This document shows positions 2,336 to 38,823 of a DNA stretch of 46,404 nucleotides, piece after piece. Below the pieces are notes generated by a model. The model made no database searches, was not told where the DNA came from, and saw only the letters and a list, made by a program, of their open reading frames with translations. Location: positions 1 through 46,404 of the forward strand of contig VBEF01000055.1 of NCBI GenBank assembly GCA_005881275.1, written 5' to 3'. How positions within the stretch are numbered: the stretch's first letter is position 1; each line of letters opens with the position of its first letter. The translations under genes and the position numbers were made by a program. The DNA comes from Chloroflexota bacterium. Lineage in GTDB: Bacteria > Chloroflexota > Dormibacteria > Dormibacterales > Dormibacteraceae.

Positions 2336-2999
2336 CAGGCCCCGCCAGCCACCATGCCATCGCGTGCGCCGCGCAGTACGCGGGCGCGAAGTCCGGACCG
2401 AGGAGCAGCGCGGTCTTGGCCACGACCTCCGCCTCGACGACCGGCCATCCGTCCCCGGCGGGACCAGGTCCGACCGCGCGCAGGTCGCCCCCAAGATTGG
2501 CGATGGCGTTGGGTCCGAGCATCTCGCACAACCGGTCGGCCATCCAGCCCTTGGCGATCCCACCGAGGTCGATGCCGCAGCCGGCGTGGACGCACGCCAC
2601 GCCGGCTCTCACCTCGAGGACTTCGCGCAAGGGGGGCAGAGGACGGGCGCCATCGAGCAGCGCAACCGTTGGGCCTTCAGCGAACGGACGGGTGTAGCCG
2701 ACGGCGAGCATCGATGGAAGCACGGCGGCATTCACAAGACCCGCGCTCATCTCGTGCGCATGCAGAGCGGCACGAAGGATGACCTCCATCTCGTCGCTGA
2801 TTCCCGTCCACTGGCCGGCGTTGCGATTGAGCCGCGAAAGCTCGCTGTCCGTTGAAAACCGGGTCAGACGAGCGCCAAGGCGCCGGACCCAGAACTCGCC
2901 CTCGAGCAAACGCGTGCGTGATTGACCACCCGCGAACAGGCTGCAGCTGGTGCCAAGTGCTTCGAAGTGATGTGACGCGACTGGGCCATCAGGACGCAT
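2325..2999 (-). CDS. apbE: ApbE-like FAD:protein FMN transferase
   Basis: A 224-residue protein of the ApbE family, which attaches FMN through a phosphoester bond to Thr/Ser of target proteins outside the cytoplasm. Visible family motifs are the SELSRLN segment near residue 55, CGIDLGGIAKGWMADRL near 145 and AIANLGGDLRAVGP near 165, which bind flavin and divalent metal. It is shorter than the roughly 300-350 residues of proteobacterial ApbE and has no clear signal peptide, as in the compact actinobacterial form. It overlaps the small anchored protein upstream (start 2999, previous stop 2989) and the heme membrane protein downstream. No obvious flavinylation acceptor domain is encoded in the operon. 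Confidence 0.85.
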   Translation of the reverse strand: MRPDGPVASHHFEALGTSCSLFAGGQSRTRLLEGEFWVRRLGARLTRFSTDSELSRLNRNAGQWTGISDEMEVILRAALHAHEMSAGLVNAAVLPSMLAVGYTRPFAEGPTVALLDGARPLPPLREVLEVRAGVACVHAGCGIDLGGIAKGWMADRLCEMLGPNAIANLGGDLRAVGPGPAGDGWPVVEAEVVAKTALLLGPDFAPAYCAAHAMAWWLAGPDDD

Positions 3000-3213
3000 A
3001 GGTCGATGTCATCGGCTCCACATCGGTTGCTTGAACAGAAGGGCCGACGTTGAGCGTGCCGCCCAGCGCGGCCGCGGTGGAGCCGGCGTTCACAACCGGC
3101 GGCTGCAGCGGCGCCGCGGGATTCTTGAGGTGAGAGGTCACGAACAGAGCGGACGCGACAGTCGCGCCGATCGTCAGGAAGGTGGCCGCCGCCTTGAGGA
3201 GCACGGTCCTCAT
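2989..3213 (-). CDS. Small membrane-anchored protein of the ApbE operon
   Basis: A 74-residue protein with one N-terminal hydrophobic segment (about residues 7-26) followed by a polar Pro/Ala/Gly tail that would lie outside the membrane. Its start sits one base after the DUF1501 stop and its end overlaps the apbE-like start, so it is firmly within the operon. Genes in this position next to ApbE often encode a secreted FMN-binding protein. The N-terminus fits that plan, but I cannot find the SGAT-type acceptor motif, so this may be a shortened remnant or an unrelated linker protein. No family assigned. Confidence 0.6.
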   Translation of the reverse strand: MRTVLLKAAATFLTIGATVASALFVTSHLKNPAAPLQPPVVNAGSTAAALGGTLNVGPSVQATDVEPMTSTYAS

Positions 3214-3214
3214 C

Positions 3215-4510
3215 TCAGACGACGACCGGAGCCTTCAAGAATGGAATGCGGTCGAAGGACGAACCGAGGATCTTCGGCGCGTCCGCGCCGAGGTGTCCGC
3301 TGAGGATCTCCTGGTACACCGATCGGAAGTCAACCGAGTACTTGAGATTGCCCGTGTTGTCGAGGCTGGTGAGGCTCGGCTCCGCGCCGTACAGACCGCC
3401 GTTCACCGGGTCTCCTATGAGGAGCAGCGGCGCTGCCGCGCCGTGGTCCGTGCCGCCGCTCGCGTTTTCTTTGGGCCGCCGTCCGAACTCCGACCATGTG
3501 GCGATGAGGACCTTGTCCGCCATGTTGTGCGCGGCCAGGTCCTTGTAGAAGGCGGAGACGGCTGAGTCGAGGTAGCCCATGAGATCGTCATGCCGGTTGA
3601 GCTCGGTGTAGTGCGTGTCGAAGCCGCCCAGCGTGACGTGCAGGAGCTTGACGCCCGTACCGGTGACGATAAGCTCGGCCGCAAGCTGCAGCGCCGCGGC
3701 GAGCTGGTTCTTTGACGAGTAGACGAGCTTGACCTGGTCGGTGTAGTCAGCCATGGGGTGATAGGTCGAGGCCGATGTGCGCAGTGTCGCCATCGTCTCG
3801 GTCGCCGTTGCGATGGCGGTGTCGAACAGCGCGCCATAGATGCCGGGCGTTCCTTTGTAGAGAGCACCAACCGCCGCTTCGACCTCGGTGCCACCGGTGA
3901 AGCCGAACGTCTTCTGGTTCTGGATAACCGTCAGAGTCGCCTGCAGGTCGCGCAGCGCTCCCGGCGCGTCGGTCGCTCCGCAGGCGCAGCCGGTCAGCGG
4001 ATGTCCGTTGGAGTCGTAGTTGGTGGCCAGCGTCCGACCGAGCCATCCATCCACCTGGCGTCGCGAGGGATCGCCCGTCTCCCAAATCCTGATCGATTCG
4101 AAGTGAGAGAAGGTTGGATTCGAATAGCCGACGCCCTGCACGATGGCGACCTTTCCCTTGTCCCAAAGTCCCTTGATGCCGCCCAGGTTGTGATTCAGGC
4201 CGTACTGCGAGTTGAGGGGAAGCGCCTGGGAGACCATCGGCCCCGCGAGCTTCGGCCGCAGGTCGTGCAGCGAAGGATCAGCGAGCGGGACGAGAGTCCG
4301 CAGGCCGTCGTTGCCGCCGGCGAGCTGGATCATGACCAGGATGTTTTCGTTTGTCATTCCTTCTTTCTTGGCGGCGTAGACGGCGCGCGCGAACGCATCG
4401 GGCACCGCCGCATATCCCGCGGCGAGGCCTGACGCGCCGGCGCCGAAGACGAGACCCGCTTTGAGAAAGTCGCGGCGCTTGAGCTGGTTGATCCCGGCTT
4501 CTTTGTTCAT
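3215..4510 (-). CDS. DUF1501 protein, Tat-exported
   Basis: A 431-residue protein of the DUF1501 family, an alkaline-phosphatase/sulfatase-like fold of unknown activity. It begins with a twin-arginine signal (KRRDFLKAG) followed by a hydrophobic stretch, so it is probably exported folded. Family blocks visible include NILVMIQLAGGNDGLRTL, TLGGFDTHYTEL and ATWSEFGRRPKEN with GGTDHGAA, which resemble metal-binding positions. I chose ATG 4510 because it places the Tat signal at the N-terminus; the longer frame to 4564 adds residues that overlap DUF1800. It lies 11 bp downstream of the DUF1800 gene, its usual partner across many phyla. Confidence 0.88.
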   Translation of the reverse strand: MNKEAGINQLKRRDFLKAGLVFGAGASGLAAGYAAVPDAFARAVYAAKKEGMTNENILVMIQLAGGNDGLRTLVPLADPSLHDLRPKLAGPMVSQALPLNSQYGLNHNLGGIKGLWDKGKVAIVQGVGYSNPTFSHFESIRIWETGDPSRRQVDGWLGRTLATNYDSNGHPLTGCACGATDAPGALRDLQATLTVIQNQKTFGFTGGTEVEAAVGALYKGTPGIYGALFDTAIATATETMATLRTSASTYHPMADYTDQVKLVYSSKNQLAAALQLAAELIVTGTGVKLLHVTLGGFDTHYTELNRHDDLMGYLDSAVSAFYKDLAAHNMADKVLIATWSEFGRRPKENASGGTDHGAAAPLLLIGDPVNGGLYGAEPSLTSLDNTGNLKYSVDFRSVYQEILSGHLGADAPKILGSSFDRIPFLKAPVVV

Positions 4511-34771: not shown

Positions 34772-35395
34772 TTAGACGCCGATTGGTTCGCGGACCAGGA
34801 TGATCGTGGTCCGGCCGGGCATGAAGTCCTGATCCAGGATCAGCGTGCGCGTGATCTTTGTCCCCACGCCCATCGTTTCCCGCAGCCGCGCGTCCTCATA
34901 TGGAAAGACGTGCTCGCGGATCCGGCGAAACGCCGTGTCCAGGTCCGGGACGATCTTCTGGCTGCCGATGACGAGGATCAGCTGCCCGGCGCCTGAGGCG
35001 ATCGGCCCGATCTGGCTGCCGCTGGCCGAGGTGACAACGATCTGACCTTCCTCGGTCACGGCGTGCGCGCTGTTGACCATGATGTCCGGCGCGGCACCGG
35101 CCCGGCGTATGTCGTCACGCTGCGTCTTCTGGTCCATCTTCATCGTCCGCCGGCGGACGAAGTCGTACTTCTCGTTGCCCATGAACTCTTTGAACAGGCC
35201 CGCGTCCTCGAGCGTCTTCGACTTGCCCGAGTGGACCTGCGCACCCTCCGGGATCCGCTTCAGCACCTCGGCCTTCGCCTCGGCCCCGTCATTCACGATC
35301 ACGACCTCGAAGTTCCGGGCGCGCAGCTTCTCCGCCAGCGCCTCCAACTGGGATTCCGATGCCGGCTCAGCGAACTCAACAGCAGCCATCGCCAT
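34772..35395 (-). CDS. LUD-domain protein (LutC-like)
   Basis: A 207-residue single LUD (DUF162) domain (HSGKSKTLEDAGLFKEF ... VNSAHAVTEEGQIVVTSASGSQIGPIASGAGQLILVIGSQKIVPDLDTAFRRI). LutC and related proteins work in lactate oxidation with LutA/LutB, but those partners are absent here, so the role is open. ATG 35395 follows an AGGAG site. It is divergent from a MarR regulator, with a palindrome in the 49-bp gap, suggesting direct control. Confidence 0.88.
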   Translation of the reverse strand: MAMAAVEFAEPASESQLEALAEKLRARNFEVVIVNDGAEAKAEVLKRIPEGAQVHSGKSKTLEDAGLFKEFMGNEKYDFVRRRTMKMDQKTQRDDIRRAGAAPDIMVNSAHAVTEEGQIVVTSASGSQIGPIASGAGQLILVIGSQKIVPDLDTAFRRIREHVFPYEDARLRETMGVGTKITRTLILDQDFMPGRTTIILVREPIGV

Positions 35396-35444: not shown

Positions 35445-35987
35445 TTGCGCCCTCAACCTATTCCAGATAGCGTGAGCGACGTGACGGTGAAGGTCCGGGC
35501 GGCGAACCGAGTCCAGGTCACGACCTGGATCAACCTGCACCAGACCGCGCGCGTCATCCAGGCCAAGATCGAGGAGCGGCTGCGAGCGACCACCGACCTC
35601 TCCTGGCCCGAGTTCGAGCTGTTGATGCGTCTCCAGGTCCGGTCCGCCCACCCGCTGCAGATGAGCGAGATCGCGGCTCAGCTGGTGGGCAGCCCGAGCG
35701 GGACGACCCGCATCGCCGACCGGCTGGAGAAGGACGGCCTCATCGTCCGCGAGACTCCTCGCGAGAACCGAAGGATCGTGCGCGTCCAGCTCACCGATCG
35801 CGGCCGCGCCGTGCTCGCCGAGGCCGACGAGACCTTCCGCGTCATCCTCCAGGAGACCTTCGGCGACCATCTGGCAGAGGGCGAGGTGTCGGAGCTACGC
35901 CAATCCCTGCGCAAGCTGCTGGAGAAGAACGGCGCCTGGCAGGAGGCTAGGTGCGACCCTGGGCTCGCGACTCCAGAAGCTTCCTGA
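35445..35987 (+). CDS. MarR-family transcriptional regulator
   Basis: A 180-residue winged-helix protein (LSWPEFELLMRLQVRSAHPLQMSEIAAQLVGSPSGTTRIADRLEKDGLIVRETPRENRRIVRVQLTDRGR). Residues 20-45 and 130-160 form the dimer helices. The start is TTG 35445, supported by AAGGA at 35434-35438; GTG 35472 is an alternative. It probably controls the divergent LUD gene and itself. Its last 41 bp overlap the convergent selenoprotein gene. Confidence 0.88.
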   Translation: MRPQPIPDSVSDVTVKVRAANRVQVTTWINLHQTARVIQAKIEERLRATTDLSWPEFELLMRLQVRSAHPLQMSEIAAQLVGSPSGTTRIADRLEKDGLIVRETPRENRRIVRVQLTDRGRAVLAEADETFRVILQETFGDHLAEGEVSELRQSLRKLLEKNGAWQEARCDPGLATPEAS

Positions 35988-36810
35988 CGATCGGGCTTGG
36001 CTCTTTCGGCTGCCACGCCTTGTAGGCCTCGCGAAGCGGCACCGGCCACTCCTGATCGAAGTCGACCCGGGCCCCGCTCGATGACGCGCCCGCGAGCACG
36101 CGCAGCGCAAGCTCGAGCACTCGCCGCTGCATGGCCTTGTCGTTCGGCACGCCGAACGCGTGGCCGAACGGGAACTCCACCCCGACGATTCGCGGCGCCC
36201 TCCGCTCCTCAGCGACCGCCGGCATCATCGTCACGACCACCGTCGGGATTCCCGCCGCCTCGATCCATCGCGCCAGCACGGGCACGTTCGAGCAGCAGTC
36301 GGGTCAAGCCGGCGCAAGGATGAGACCGCCCGCGCCCTGCTCCCTTAGATGCTCCACGATCTCGGGCGCGGTCTTGCGACGCCACTCCTCCAGGCCGCGA
36401 TCCTGATAGCCCATCACAGCGACGTGATTTGCCACGGCTCCGCCGACGATTCCTTGCTCTGCGAGCTCGGCGAGTCCGCGCATGGGAAGCGCGATCTCGG
36501 GATCGGCGAGCACGTCCTCGTCATTTATATGTAGGTGAGCGACGGCGATGTCGTCGGAACCTGCGGTTGCCGGTATCGAGCGCCAGGTCGAGTCGCCCCA
36601 CTCCGGATTCGCCTGCTCGCGATCGAGGTCGAAGGTCGACTGGCTCGCCTTCATGTAGATCCCGGCTGAGGTCAGCAGCGCGATGCGCGAGTCGGCGAGC
36701 CTGTTCTCGAACGGCGCCCAGACAGGTGATTCCTCGCCCGGGAACGCTCCGCGTCCCTCATATAAAGGACGGAAGCTGCGCGGCAGGAACCTGTAGCTGT
36801 CGACCAGCAC
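35947..36810 (-). CDS. GrdB-like reductase, predicted selenoprotein (in-frame UGA)
   Basis: A 287-residue protein of the glycine/sarcosine/betaine reductase B-like family, read through an in-frame UGA at 36306-36304 (codon 169). On the N-terminal side the frame ends in GGLILAPA; after UGA it continues without a shift as PDCC, SNVPVLARWIEAAGIPTVVVT, so residue 169 forms U-P-D-C. Cys homologues typically have CPDC here, so selenocysteine fits a UxxC redox centre. A SECIS-like hairpin follows at a suitable distance. The start is GTG 36810, overlapping the PhzF stop as TAGTG. It is the last gene of a four-gene operon. No sel genes are in the window; a simple nonsense mutation is the alternative. 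Confidence 0.8.
36259..36292 (-). promoter_or_regulatory. SECIS-like hairpin after the in-frame UGA
   Basis: On the minus-strand mRNA, 11 nt after UGA, CUCGA (36292-36288) pairs with UCGAG (36263-36259), and inside it CGUGCC (36286-36281) pairs with GGCGCG (36274-36269). The 6-nt apical loop CGUGCU contains the GU typical of bacterial SECIS, about 24 nt from UGA, inside the usual range. Confidence 0.6.
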
Positions 36811-37700
36811 TAAGAAAATTCAGCGAGCGTGCCGCTGACCACGGGCATCACGGAGCCGCCGACCTCGATTCGCTCGGGGATGTCCTTCGACTCGCCGTAC
36901 GCGAGCTCGATGTGGACGAAGCTCTGCCGCCCCATCTTCGTGCCCTGCTCGCTGACGATCTCGACCTTCGGCGCCCGCTCGATGAGGCCGTACTTGACCG
37001 CGTAGGCGCCGAGCGGCCCGCTGGCCGATCCCGTTGCGGGATCCTCGGACGTGTCGAGCGCGAACGCACGGCTGTAGAGCCGATTTGGCCCGTTCGCCGC
37101 GGTCAGAAAGACCGCGTCCGTGAGCCGTCGCGGCAAGAGCTTCTCCAGCCGGGATCGGTCAGACGTCGCCTGATCCACGGCGCTCGGGTCTCGCAGCGCC
37201 ACGAACAGAAACGGTAGGCCGGTGCTTGCAATCTGCGCAGGCGCGCTGGGCACGACATCCGCCACGTCAACCCCGATCGCGGCCGCAACCTGGGCGTGCG
37301 GAAAAACCTGGCCGAACGTGACTGTCGGATGCGTCATCCAGAACATCAGCCGCTGCGCCTCCTGGGTGCATCTCACCTTCACTGGCCCCACGCTTTCCTC
37401 GAGGACGAACTCAGCCGCGCCTTCCGGGACCGCACCTTCAGTCGCGAGCACCCACGCGGTCCCGATCGTGGGATGGCCCGCGAACGGCACTTCCTTGTGA
37501 GGGGTGAAGATCCGGACCCTGGCGGCGTTGGCGGGATCCTTTGGCGGGAGCACGAAGGTGGTCTCGGAGAAGTTCATCTCACGCGCGATTCGCTGCATGA
37601 GCTTGATCGGCATGCCCTTGGCGTCGAGGACGACGGCAAGCTGGTTGCCGAAGAGCGGTTTGTCGGTGAAGACGTCGACGATCCGGACCTTTCGCGTCAT
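36810..37700 (-). CDS. PhzF-family isomerase/epimerase-like protein
   Basis: A 296-residue protein of the PhzF fold (RKVRIVDVFTDKPLFGNQLAVVLDA ... MNFSETTFVL ... RIFTPHKEVPFAGHPTIGTAWVL ... DTSEDPATGSASGPLGAY). The conserved Glu in NFSET and the GHPTIG and EDPATGSA blocks are present, so it is probably catalytically active; the substrate is unknown. ATG 37700 overlaps the thioesterase stop as ATGA. It sits upstream of the selenoprotein in one operon. Confidence 0.92.
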   Translation of the reverse strand: MTRKVRIVDVFTDKPLFGNQLAVVLDAKGMPIKLMQRIAREMNFSETTFVLPPKDPANAARVRIFTPHKEVPFAGHPTIGTAWVLATEGAVPEGAAEFVLEESVGPVKVRCTQEAQRLMFWMTHPTVTFGQVFPHAQVAAAIGVDVADVVPSAPAQIASTGLPFLFVALRDPSAVDQATSDRSRLEKLLPRRLTDAVFLTAANGPNRLYSRAFALDTSEDPATGSASGPLGAYAVKYGLIERAPKVEIVSEQGTKMGRQSFVHIELAYGESKDIPERIEVGGSVMPVVSGTLAEFS

Positions 37701-38188
37701 TGCGCTGGAACGATGAGACATGTCGTTGTCCCATGCGCCAGGAGCTTGCCTGTGCTCAACGCGACCAGCTTGCCCTCGGCCGTCGCGATGGTGCCGCCGC
37801 GATGGATCACGATGCCTTCGCACCGGACCCGGCCCGTATCGAGCGTGATGGGTCGAACAAAGTTCGCTTTGACCTCGAGCGTGGTGTATCGCTCGCCCAC
37901 CCCGAGCGTCGAGTGAACGGCGCAGCCCATCGCCGAATCGAGCAGGGTCATCGCAAACCCGCCGTGGACCACGCCGATCGGGTTGTACAGGTGCTCGCCG
38001 GGTTCGCCCTCGAAAACGGCCTTGCCCTCCTCGACGTGCACCCCTGTGAAGCCCATCGTCTCGGCGATCGGCGGCGCCGGCAACCTGCCCTCGAACACTT
38101 CTTTGAGGATTTCGAGGCCGGTGCGGCCCGGCGCGGCCTGGAGCAGGAGGAACGGGTCCTCCCAGCTGACCGTGCGCGAGCGCTTCAT
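37697..38188 (-). CDS. PaaI-family hotdog thioesterase
   Basis: A 163-residue hotdog-fold protein (MGFTGVHVEEGKAVFEGEPGEHLYNPIGVVHGGFAMTLLDSAMGCAVHSTL ... RGGTIATAEGKLV). The VHGG motif is the usual active-site region of PaaI-like acyl-CoA thioesterases. ATG 38188 is supported by GGAG 6 nt upstream; ATG 38200, which overlaps the LysE stop, is an alternative. It is coupled to PhzF downstream. Confidence 0.88.
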   Translation of the reverse strand: MKRSRTVSWEDPFLLLQAAPGRTGLEILKEVFEGRLPAPPIAETMGFTGVHVEEGKAVFEGEPGEHLYNPIGVVHGGFAMTLLDSAMGCAVHSTLGVGERYTTLEVKANFVRPITLDTGRVRCEGIVIHRGGTIATAEGKLVALSTGKLLAHGTTTCLIVPAQ

Positions 38189-38199
38189 CCCCGTCTCCA

Positions 38200-38823
38200 T
38201 CACAAACCTGAAAAGGCCGATATCACGGCCAAAATTCCGAGCCCCGCGATGGCCGCGCCGCTGAAGACGCTGATCCCGCGCACAACCGCCGGTGTCAGCC
38301 GGGCCCTCAGCAGGGAGGCCGCGAGCACCAGGATGCACCACCAGGCGGCCGAGCCGAGCAGCACGCCGGCGACCACCAGCGCAGGCCCGCTGAACGAGCG
38401 GCCGGTGGCGAAGCCCAGGGTCGCCGCGAGCGCCGCGAACGAGAGGATCGTCGCAGGGTTGGTGATCGTCAGGCCGAGCGTCGACGCGTAGGCCCAGGCG
38501 AGACCGCGCCCTGTCGGGCCGCCCGCCGCTTCAACGTTTCGTCCTCGTTCGAGCAGGATGCGGAGCCCGAAACCCAGCAGGATGGCTCCGCCGACAACGG
38601 CCAGCGGCCGCCGCCCCGCGGCGAACGCAGCCGTCAGCGCGGCGACGCCGAACGTCGCGATGGCGGCGTAGAAGGCGTCCGCGGTCGCGACTCCGAAGCC
38701 CGAGAACAGGCCGGCGAGCCGGCCTTGCAGGAGCGTGCGCCTAACGCACAGGAAGAAGATCGGCCCGGGCGACGCGGCGATGGCCAGGCCCAGGACGAAG
38801 CCCCTGAGCAGCAGGCTGAACAC
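38200..38823 (-). CDS. LysE-family exporter
   Basis: A 207-residue membrane protein with about six helices (GFVLGLAIAASPGPIFFLCVRRTLLQGRLAGLFSGFGVATADAFYAAIATFG ... SAAWWCILVLAASLLR). It belongs to the LysE/RhtB translocators, which export amino acids or similar compounds. The start is GTG 38823, with AAGGG upstream. It is the first gene of the LysE-thioesterase-PhzF-GrdB-like operon. Confidence 0.9.
   Translation of the reverse strand: MFSLLLRGFVLGLAIAASPGPIFFLCVRRTLLQGRLAGLFSGFGVATADAFYAAIATFGVAALTAAFAAGRRPLAVVGGAILLGFGLRILLERGRNVEAAGGPTGRGLAWAYASTLGLTITNPATILSFAALAATLGFATGRSFSGPALVVAGVLLGSAAWWCILVLAASLLRARLTPAVVRGISVFSGAAIAGLGILAVISAFSGL

Follow-up and report, generated by a model that had tools for sequence, protein, structure and literature searches.

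A putative selenoprotein of the GrdB/PrdB superfamily with a UPDCC motif, encoded beside a phzF-like gene in Dormibacteria

The locus and its reading frame

The window, i.e., the whole 46,404-nucleotide stretch of the Chloroflexota (Dormibacteria) contig VBEF01000055.1 analysed here, carries on its minus strand a candidate selenoprotein gene preceded by ORFs for a PhzF-like isomerase, a Hotdog-fold thioesterase and a LysE-type exporter (Table 1). Translation of the frame from its GTG start to its TAG stop yields 287 residues with one inner TGA; as a sequence-only reading of this DNA had pointed out, the frame is open on both sides of this codon (36306-36304), which occupies position 169 in the motif GGLILAPA-U-PDCC-SNVPVLARW. 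The predicted second residue of the UxxC pair, Cys172, is directly followed by Cys173 (36294-36292), which among the rows aligned is confined to those with UPDCC. Ordinary ORF calling splits such a gene at the UGA, here into a 168-residue piece and a 112-residue piece beginning at an internal GTG (36285), so that the enzyme is liable to be overlooked or read as a pseudogene.

Table 1. Features of the candidate selenoprotein locus (window coordinates)
Feature	Position	Strand	Remarks
Candidate selenoprotein gene, PrdB/GrdB-like, 287 aa	35947..36810	-	GTG at 36810, TAG 35949-35947
In-frame TGA, predicted Sec169 of the UPDCC motif	36304..36306	-	codon 169; TGA in 24/24 orthologues
Cys172, predicted second residue of the UxxC pair	36295..36297	-	invariant in 27-row alignment
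Putative bacterial SECIS hairpin	36269..36286	-	6-bp upper stem, 6-nt loop CGUGCU, UGA-to-loop 23 nt
phzF-like isomerase ORF	36810..37823	-	PF02567 7.5e-58; true start may be further in
Hotdog thioesterase (4HBT) ORF	37697..38341	-	upstream of phzF, many same-family loci
LysE-type exporter ORF	38200..38823	-	present in many same-family loci

Neither a Pfam scan at E 0.001 nor a sequence search of the PDB returned a match for the 287-residue protein. A PDB match for the alignment A1 covered 28 residues of a designed protein and was taken as spurious, and the sole Rfam match between 34.5 and 38.5 kb, a sub-threshold Guanidine-II, was ignored. The AlphaFold model (15 sequences) is poor, with a mean pLDDT of 52.6, and therefore the predicted fold is no test of the mechanism considered below.

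Superfamily placement, partner subunits and Sec/Cys exchange

The best NCBIfam match is the PrdB model TIGR04483 (127.5 bits, E 5.4e-37, against a cut-off of 300), which recognises two annotated PrdBs at 310.2 and 408.2 bits. GrdB-type models come next (E 2e-10 to 7e-8), all below cut-off; the broad TIGR01918 reaches 34.7 bits vs a cut-off of 65.45, and Pfam GRDB, in a looser scan, 18.3 bits with a cut-off of 22. A UxxC or CxxC is present in the aligned column. By these profile and motif matches the protein is a member of the selenoprotein B (GrdB/PrdB) superfamily, an established one, in which it falls below every curated cut-off. The original label ‘GrdB-like’ stands at the superfamily level, whereas the best model is PrdB and neither known reductase fits. 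Homology to PrdB extends over residues 28-247, with Sec in the equivalent column; however, one PrdB from Peptoclostridium and one from Ligilactobacillus have UGTC in place of UPDCC and are 237 and 241 residues long, without the extra N- and C-terminal stretches of the window protein. Further, the Ligilactobacillus gene lies in a prd cluster, unlike the window gene, which sits beside phzF without a PF09338 partner. With GrdB, GrdF and GrdH (PF07355, TIGR01917/01918) the likeness is that of a common superfamily, but the GrdB models span 431-435 positions. In a tree of 47 proteins, nine of the 24 orthologues described below among them, the 11 UPDCC rows group together on a stem of 0.68 with support 100/99, and are separate from the two PrdBs and from the CPLC group, the deep placements lying on long branches.

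PrdA carries a pyruvoyl group with a role in D-proline reductase, and glycine reductase needs both GrdA and GrdE. The PrdA/GrdE-type domain PF09338, whose profile recognised an annotated PrdA at 76.3 bits, had no match in 25 of the 26 carrier genomes, including the window's own (86% complete). GRDA over cut-off was likewise absent from 25 of the 26, the window's genome again among them, the match in G376 being below cut-off. The one carrier with both partners over cut-off is G010, in which they lie near each other on a contig other than that of the gene, and their detection establishes that the search does find such genes. As far as the draft genomes show, the protein appears to be a stand-alone member of the superfamily. 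In G010 the partners (G010:C196:54785-59218; L115 and L116), a gene with the PF09338 domain and a GrdA gene that has a TGA in frame, flank a selenoprotein B match in what is apparently a glycine reductase cluster. The plasmid EAL2_808p of Peptoclostridium acidaminophilum carries an annotated prdB with an in-frame TGA (2989-3702; 310.2 bits, over cut-off) that is perhaps another orphan: the gene table, which is incomplete, shows no prdA within 3 kb of it.

A genuine PrdB subunit of D-proline reductase is what the best NCBIfam match might suggest, as might the PhzF-like neighbour, which matches proline racemase just over the cut-off; moreover, a distant prdA is possible in principle, the Peptoclostridium prdB too having none listed within 3 kb. 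Nevertheless, the gap between 127.5 bits and the scores of annotated PrdBs, the absence of PF09338 from all but one carrier and the separate, well-supported UPDCC clade render this identity very improbable, and we favour a stand-alone selenoprotein of the superfamily.

Homologues occur in 98 of 400 sampled genomes of the phylum. The residue-level comparison, which among the rows without an inner TGA leaves aside G421 and some fragments from G376 and G251, finds either Sec or Cys aligned with residue 169, in line with the alignment that the sequence-only reading had proposed. Each of the 16 Cys-form rows compared has its Cys there; the CPDC expected of such relatives was not found, the motif being CPLC in all 16, and CPIC and CPVC in two proteobacterial rows. 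Of ten further rows, drawn from three families and neighbours, nine carry Sec, eight of them in UPLC and one in UPHIC, and the tenth carries Cys. The CPLC and UPLC proteins of the same phylum (L094-L109, L122-L130) are homologous to the window protein and exchange Cys and Sec at column 169, but in the tree the 16 CPLC rows group by themselves, next to PrdB and on long branches, and the UPLC rows are assigned by motif rather than by tree. Among the rows examined, the UPDCC clade yielded no Cys form. G396 has one TGA listed, yet Cys in the Sec169 column.

In family f12, the Cys forms come from G117, G233 and G310 (92, 79 and 80% complete), in which neither a selA match nor selB was seen, and the Sec forms from G146 and G177, both with selA and selB. 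In family f19, the Cys forms are found in genomes having selA and selB; therefore, Cys is not simply the mark of lost machinery. A PrdB-like ORF on the plus strand of G374:C266 (L110) has two in-frame TGAs at about 2411-2425, reading UPIUH, a possible UxxU double-selenocysteine site.

These homologues bear on a second alternative, namely that the locus holds two genes, one for a 168-residue protein ending at the TGA and one for a 112-residue protein from the GTG at 36285. The ORF listing does yield both pieces, but the Cys homologues, like the PrdB model, run across the junction as one protein, and the U/C-x-x-C motif would fall in the gap between the pieces. This leaves two separate genes hardly tenable beside a single frame read through the TGA.

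Conservation of the TGA codon, the hairpin and the selenocysteine machinery

Within the class, 110 genomes were searched and 27 gave matches at E <=1e-10, of which the 24 spanning the Sec site, with the window's genome among them, constitute the orthologue set. One locus was counted per genome (L021-L034 are loci among L036-L056, as their coordinates and identities match). The 23 other orthologues are 62-83% identical to the window protein, and those relatives that bear a name are MAGs recorded as ‘Chloroflexi bacterium’ and ‘Candidatus Dormiibacterota’. Codon 169 is TGA, followed by PDCC, in every one of the 24. Outside the class, UPDCC is also seen in G419 and in a fragment in G376. Of the other three matching genomes, G025 and G092 have distant homologues with a TGA at the equivalent place (UPIC, UPVC); G074 has a second, distant copy with UTTC. 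The third, G088, whose genome has selA, contains a copy that has lost a large internal part, the Sec site included; both of its fragments (L060/L063, G088:C33) were excluded from every orthologue count.

Compared with the 23 orthologues, the window gene has a median dN/dS of 0.22 5' of the TGA and 0.15 3' of it, the purifying value of the latter part being best explained by in-frame translation of the second half of the gene. Across the 24 orthologues, synonymous variation is minimal around the TGA: mean synonymous entropy is 0.21 bit for the 10 conserved codons of 170-180 vs 1.09 for 119 conserved codons elsewhere (Mann-Whitney p 3.9e-6, to be taken as indicative since codons of related genes are non-independent). 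Codons 175-179 (AAC GTG CCC GTG CTG) are identical in all 24, and the base 3' of the TGA is invariably C, giving a UGAC context. On the other side of the TGA, the preceding codon (36307-36309) is GCT in 22 of the 22 orthologues with Ala there. GCT is a minority codon at most other Ala columns shown, with codon 200 (12/24) as an exception; before the TGA it forms a conserved sequence context on the 5' side of the Sec codon.

The bSECIS model specifies a loop of 3-9 nt with G in the first two positions, a stem of 4-16 bp, a distance of 16-37 nt from the UGA and an MFE of -7.5 kcal/mol or lower (PMC13188914). Downstream of the window's TGA, a hairpin with an upper stem of six pairs (36286-36281/36274-36269) and the loop CGUGCU (36280-36275) agrees with these published values: the loop is of 6 nt with G second, the distance is 23 nt and the MFE -8.4 kcal/mol. 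The hairpin with a GU-containing loop noticed in the sequence-only reading is thereby confirmed; its start 11 nt from the UGA is not a conserved feature, as the lower stem is complete in just 6 of the 24 orthologues and the conserved part begins 17 nt after the UGA. All six upper-stem pairs and the identical loop are retained in 24/24; the stem changes amount to a single pair that is U-A in 21 and the wobble U-G in 3, with no two-sided compensatory changes. In the GC-rich window gene on its own, a hairpin with the published properties lies 3' of 39 of 257 codon positions, and therefore the hairpin alone is no evidence; it is its conservation that is. In a scan of 252 codon positions (unbroken stems, last 35 alignment columns left out), such a hairpin is present in all 24 genes at the seven positions 165-171, and it is always the one at 36286-36269. 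Among the distant homologues, L059, L061 and L062 each show a 7-bp hairpin, with GUG or GUA as its loop, at 18 nt from the TGA.

The selenocysteine genes that the sequence-only reading had named for a check are all in the window's genome (2.94 Mb, 127 contigs): a tRNA-Sec (69.3 bits, over cut-off; anticodon TCA by ARAGORN), selA (504.7 bits) adjoining selB (341.3 bits), and selD (287.7 bits), cut by a contig end. This selD (L018, G000:C118:19484-20254) has its own in-frame TGA, in GAG-U-ACK, and looks like a selenoprotein gene itself. Over the 24 orthologue genomes, selA is above cut-off in 22 and selB, at a threshold of E 1e-60, in 21. At these thresholds, both are absent from G073 (95% complete) and G075 (80%); in G083 (86%), selB was not found and selA ends at a contig edge. 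These gaps likely reflect draft assemblies and missing contigs, and they count against a strict association of gene and machinery. By itself, selA is non-discriminating, being over cut-off in 321 of the 400 genomes sampled from the phylum.

That tRNA(Sec) can be charged with Cys is known in principle, and with Cys homologues in existence a mischarged tRNA, or some other one, could decode the UGA as Cys or as a different amino acid; the presence of selA, selB, selC and selD and the conserved SECIS speak against this, and we regard decoding as anything other than selenocysteine as scarcely credible. The weakest alternative would see here an ordinary Cys protein hit by a nonsense mutation or by an error of sequencing, for which the single TGA and the wrecked copy in G088 might be cited; it is all but excluded by the TGA in 24/24 orthologues of separate assemblies, the purifying selection 3' of it, the conserved hairpin and the Sec machinery. 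Thus, the conserved TGA, the hairpin, the downstream selection, the machinery and the Sec/Cys column together argue for a selenoprotein, as had been proposed from the DNA letters, rather than for a nonsense mutation. The TGA of codon 169 is almost certainly read as selenocysteine, and at the level of comparative genomics the selenoprotein call can be considered secure.

Predicted mechanism and the gene neighbourhood

As a whole, the locus is best explained, with a probability of about 0.95, as encoding a selenoprotein of the superfamily with SECIS-directed Sec at position 169, apparently functioning as a stand-alone reductase. The conserved hairpin and the machinery suggest that SelB would deliver Sec-tRNA(Sec) to the UGA under the direction of the hairpin. 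By analogy with UxxC chemistry, Sec169 would most likely attack an electrophilic substrate as a selenolate, the intermediate being resolved by Cys172, or perhaps by Cys173, and the enzyme re-reduced by a cellular dithiol. We infer that the protein acts as a Sec/Cys reductase that would operate without a PrdA/GrdE pyruvoyl-type subunit and without GrdA, and that would be neither D-proline nor glycine reductase.

The phzF-like gene directly precedes the selenoprotein gene, its TAG stop sharing one base with the GTG start of the latter, and its product scores 27.9 bits (cut-off 27) against proline racemase, PF05544. Of 22 same-family loci, 19 have the pair overlapping or at most 10 nt apart; in the remaining three the gaps are 420, 423 and 1603 nt. 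Two f2 genomes, with about 1.5 kb upstream covered, and G419 yielded no phzF near the gene. The linkage is a lineage-specific hint rather than a defining feature. The isomerase may supply the substrate of the reductase or act on it. A more speculative proposal, which we consider unlikely but spell out, is that the UPDCC protein and the PhzF-like isomerase constitute an undescribed two-enzyme selenium-dependent reductive pathway of soil bacteria, with a non-proline substrate and no pyruvoyl subunit. If so, an isomerase or epimerase would prepare the substrate that the selenoprotein then cleaves reductively, in a functional parallel to proline racemase and D-proline reductase.

PrdB-type UxxC selenoproteins named by homology, with both Sec and Cys forms, have been reported from marine metagenomes, where they are among the most abundant in the surveys (PMC1088965, PMC2398784); the portions of these reports available to us mention neither a UxxCC group nor a PhzF neighbour. 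Among open-licence papers, searches that did not use the UxxCC motif itself as a term found none on selenocysteine in Dormibacteria (under this spelling), on selenoprotein B together with phzF, or on the UxxCC clade and its apparent lack of partner subunits. The superfamily itself is known; what is new is the UxxCC clade, the apparent lack of partner subunits and the phzF neighbour. An uncultured soil-bacterial lineage would retain a selenoprotein here, and the UxxCC clade, together with the isomerase linked to it, offers a concrete lead to the role of PrdB-type selenoproteins without PrdA.

The thioesterase and LysE-type ORFs probably belong to the same operon as the selenoprotein gene. Downstream, same-family loci contain msrB, PNPOx-like and luciferase-like genes, joined in some by lutC and marR. 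In the window, 34775-35395 and 35445-35984 hold a gene for a LUD-domain (LutC-like) protein and a divergent MarR regulator, a pair that is syntenic with the selenoprotein gene in some relatives and not in others.
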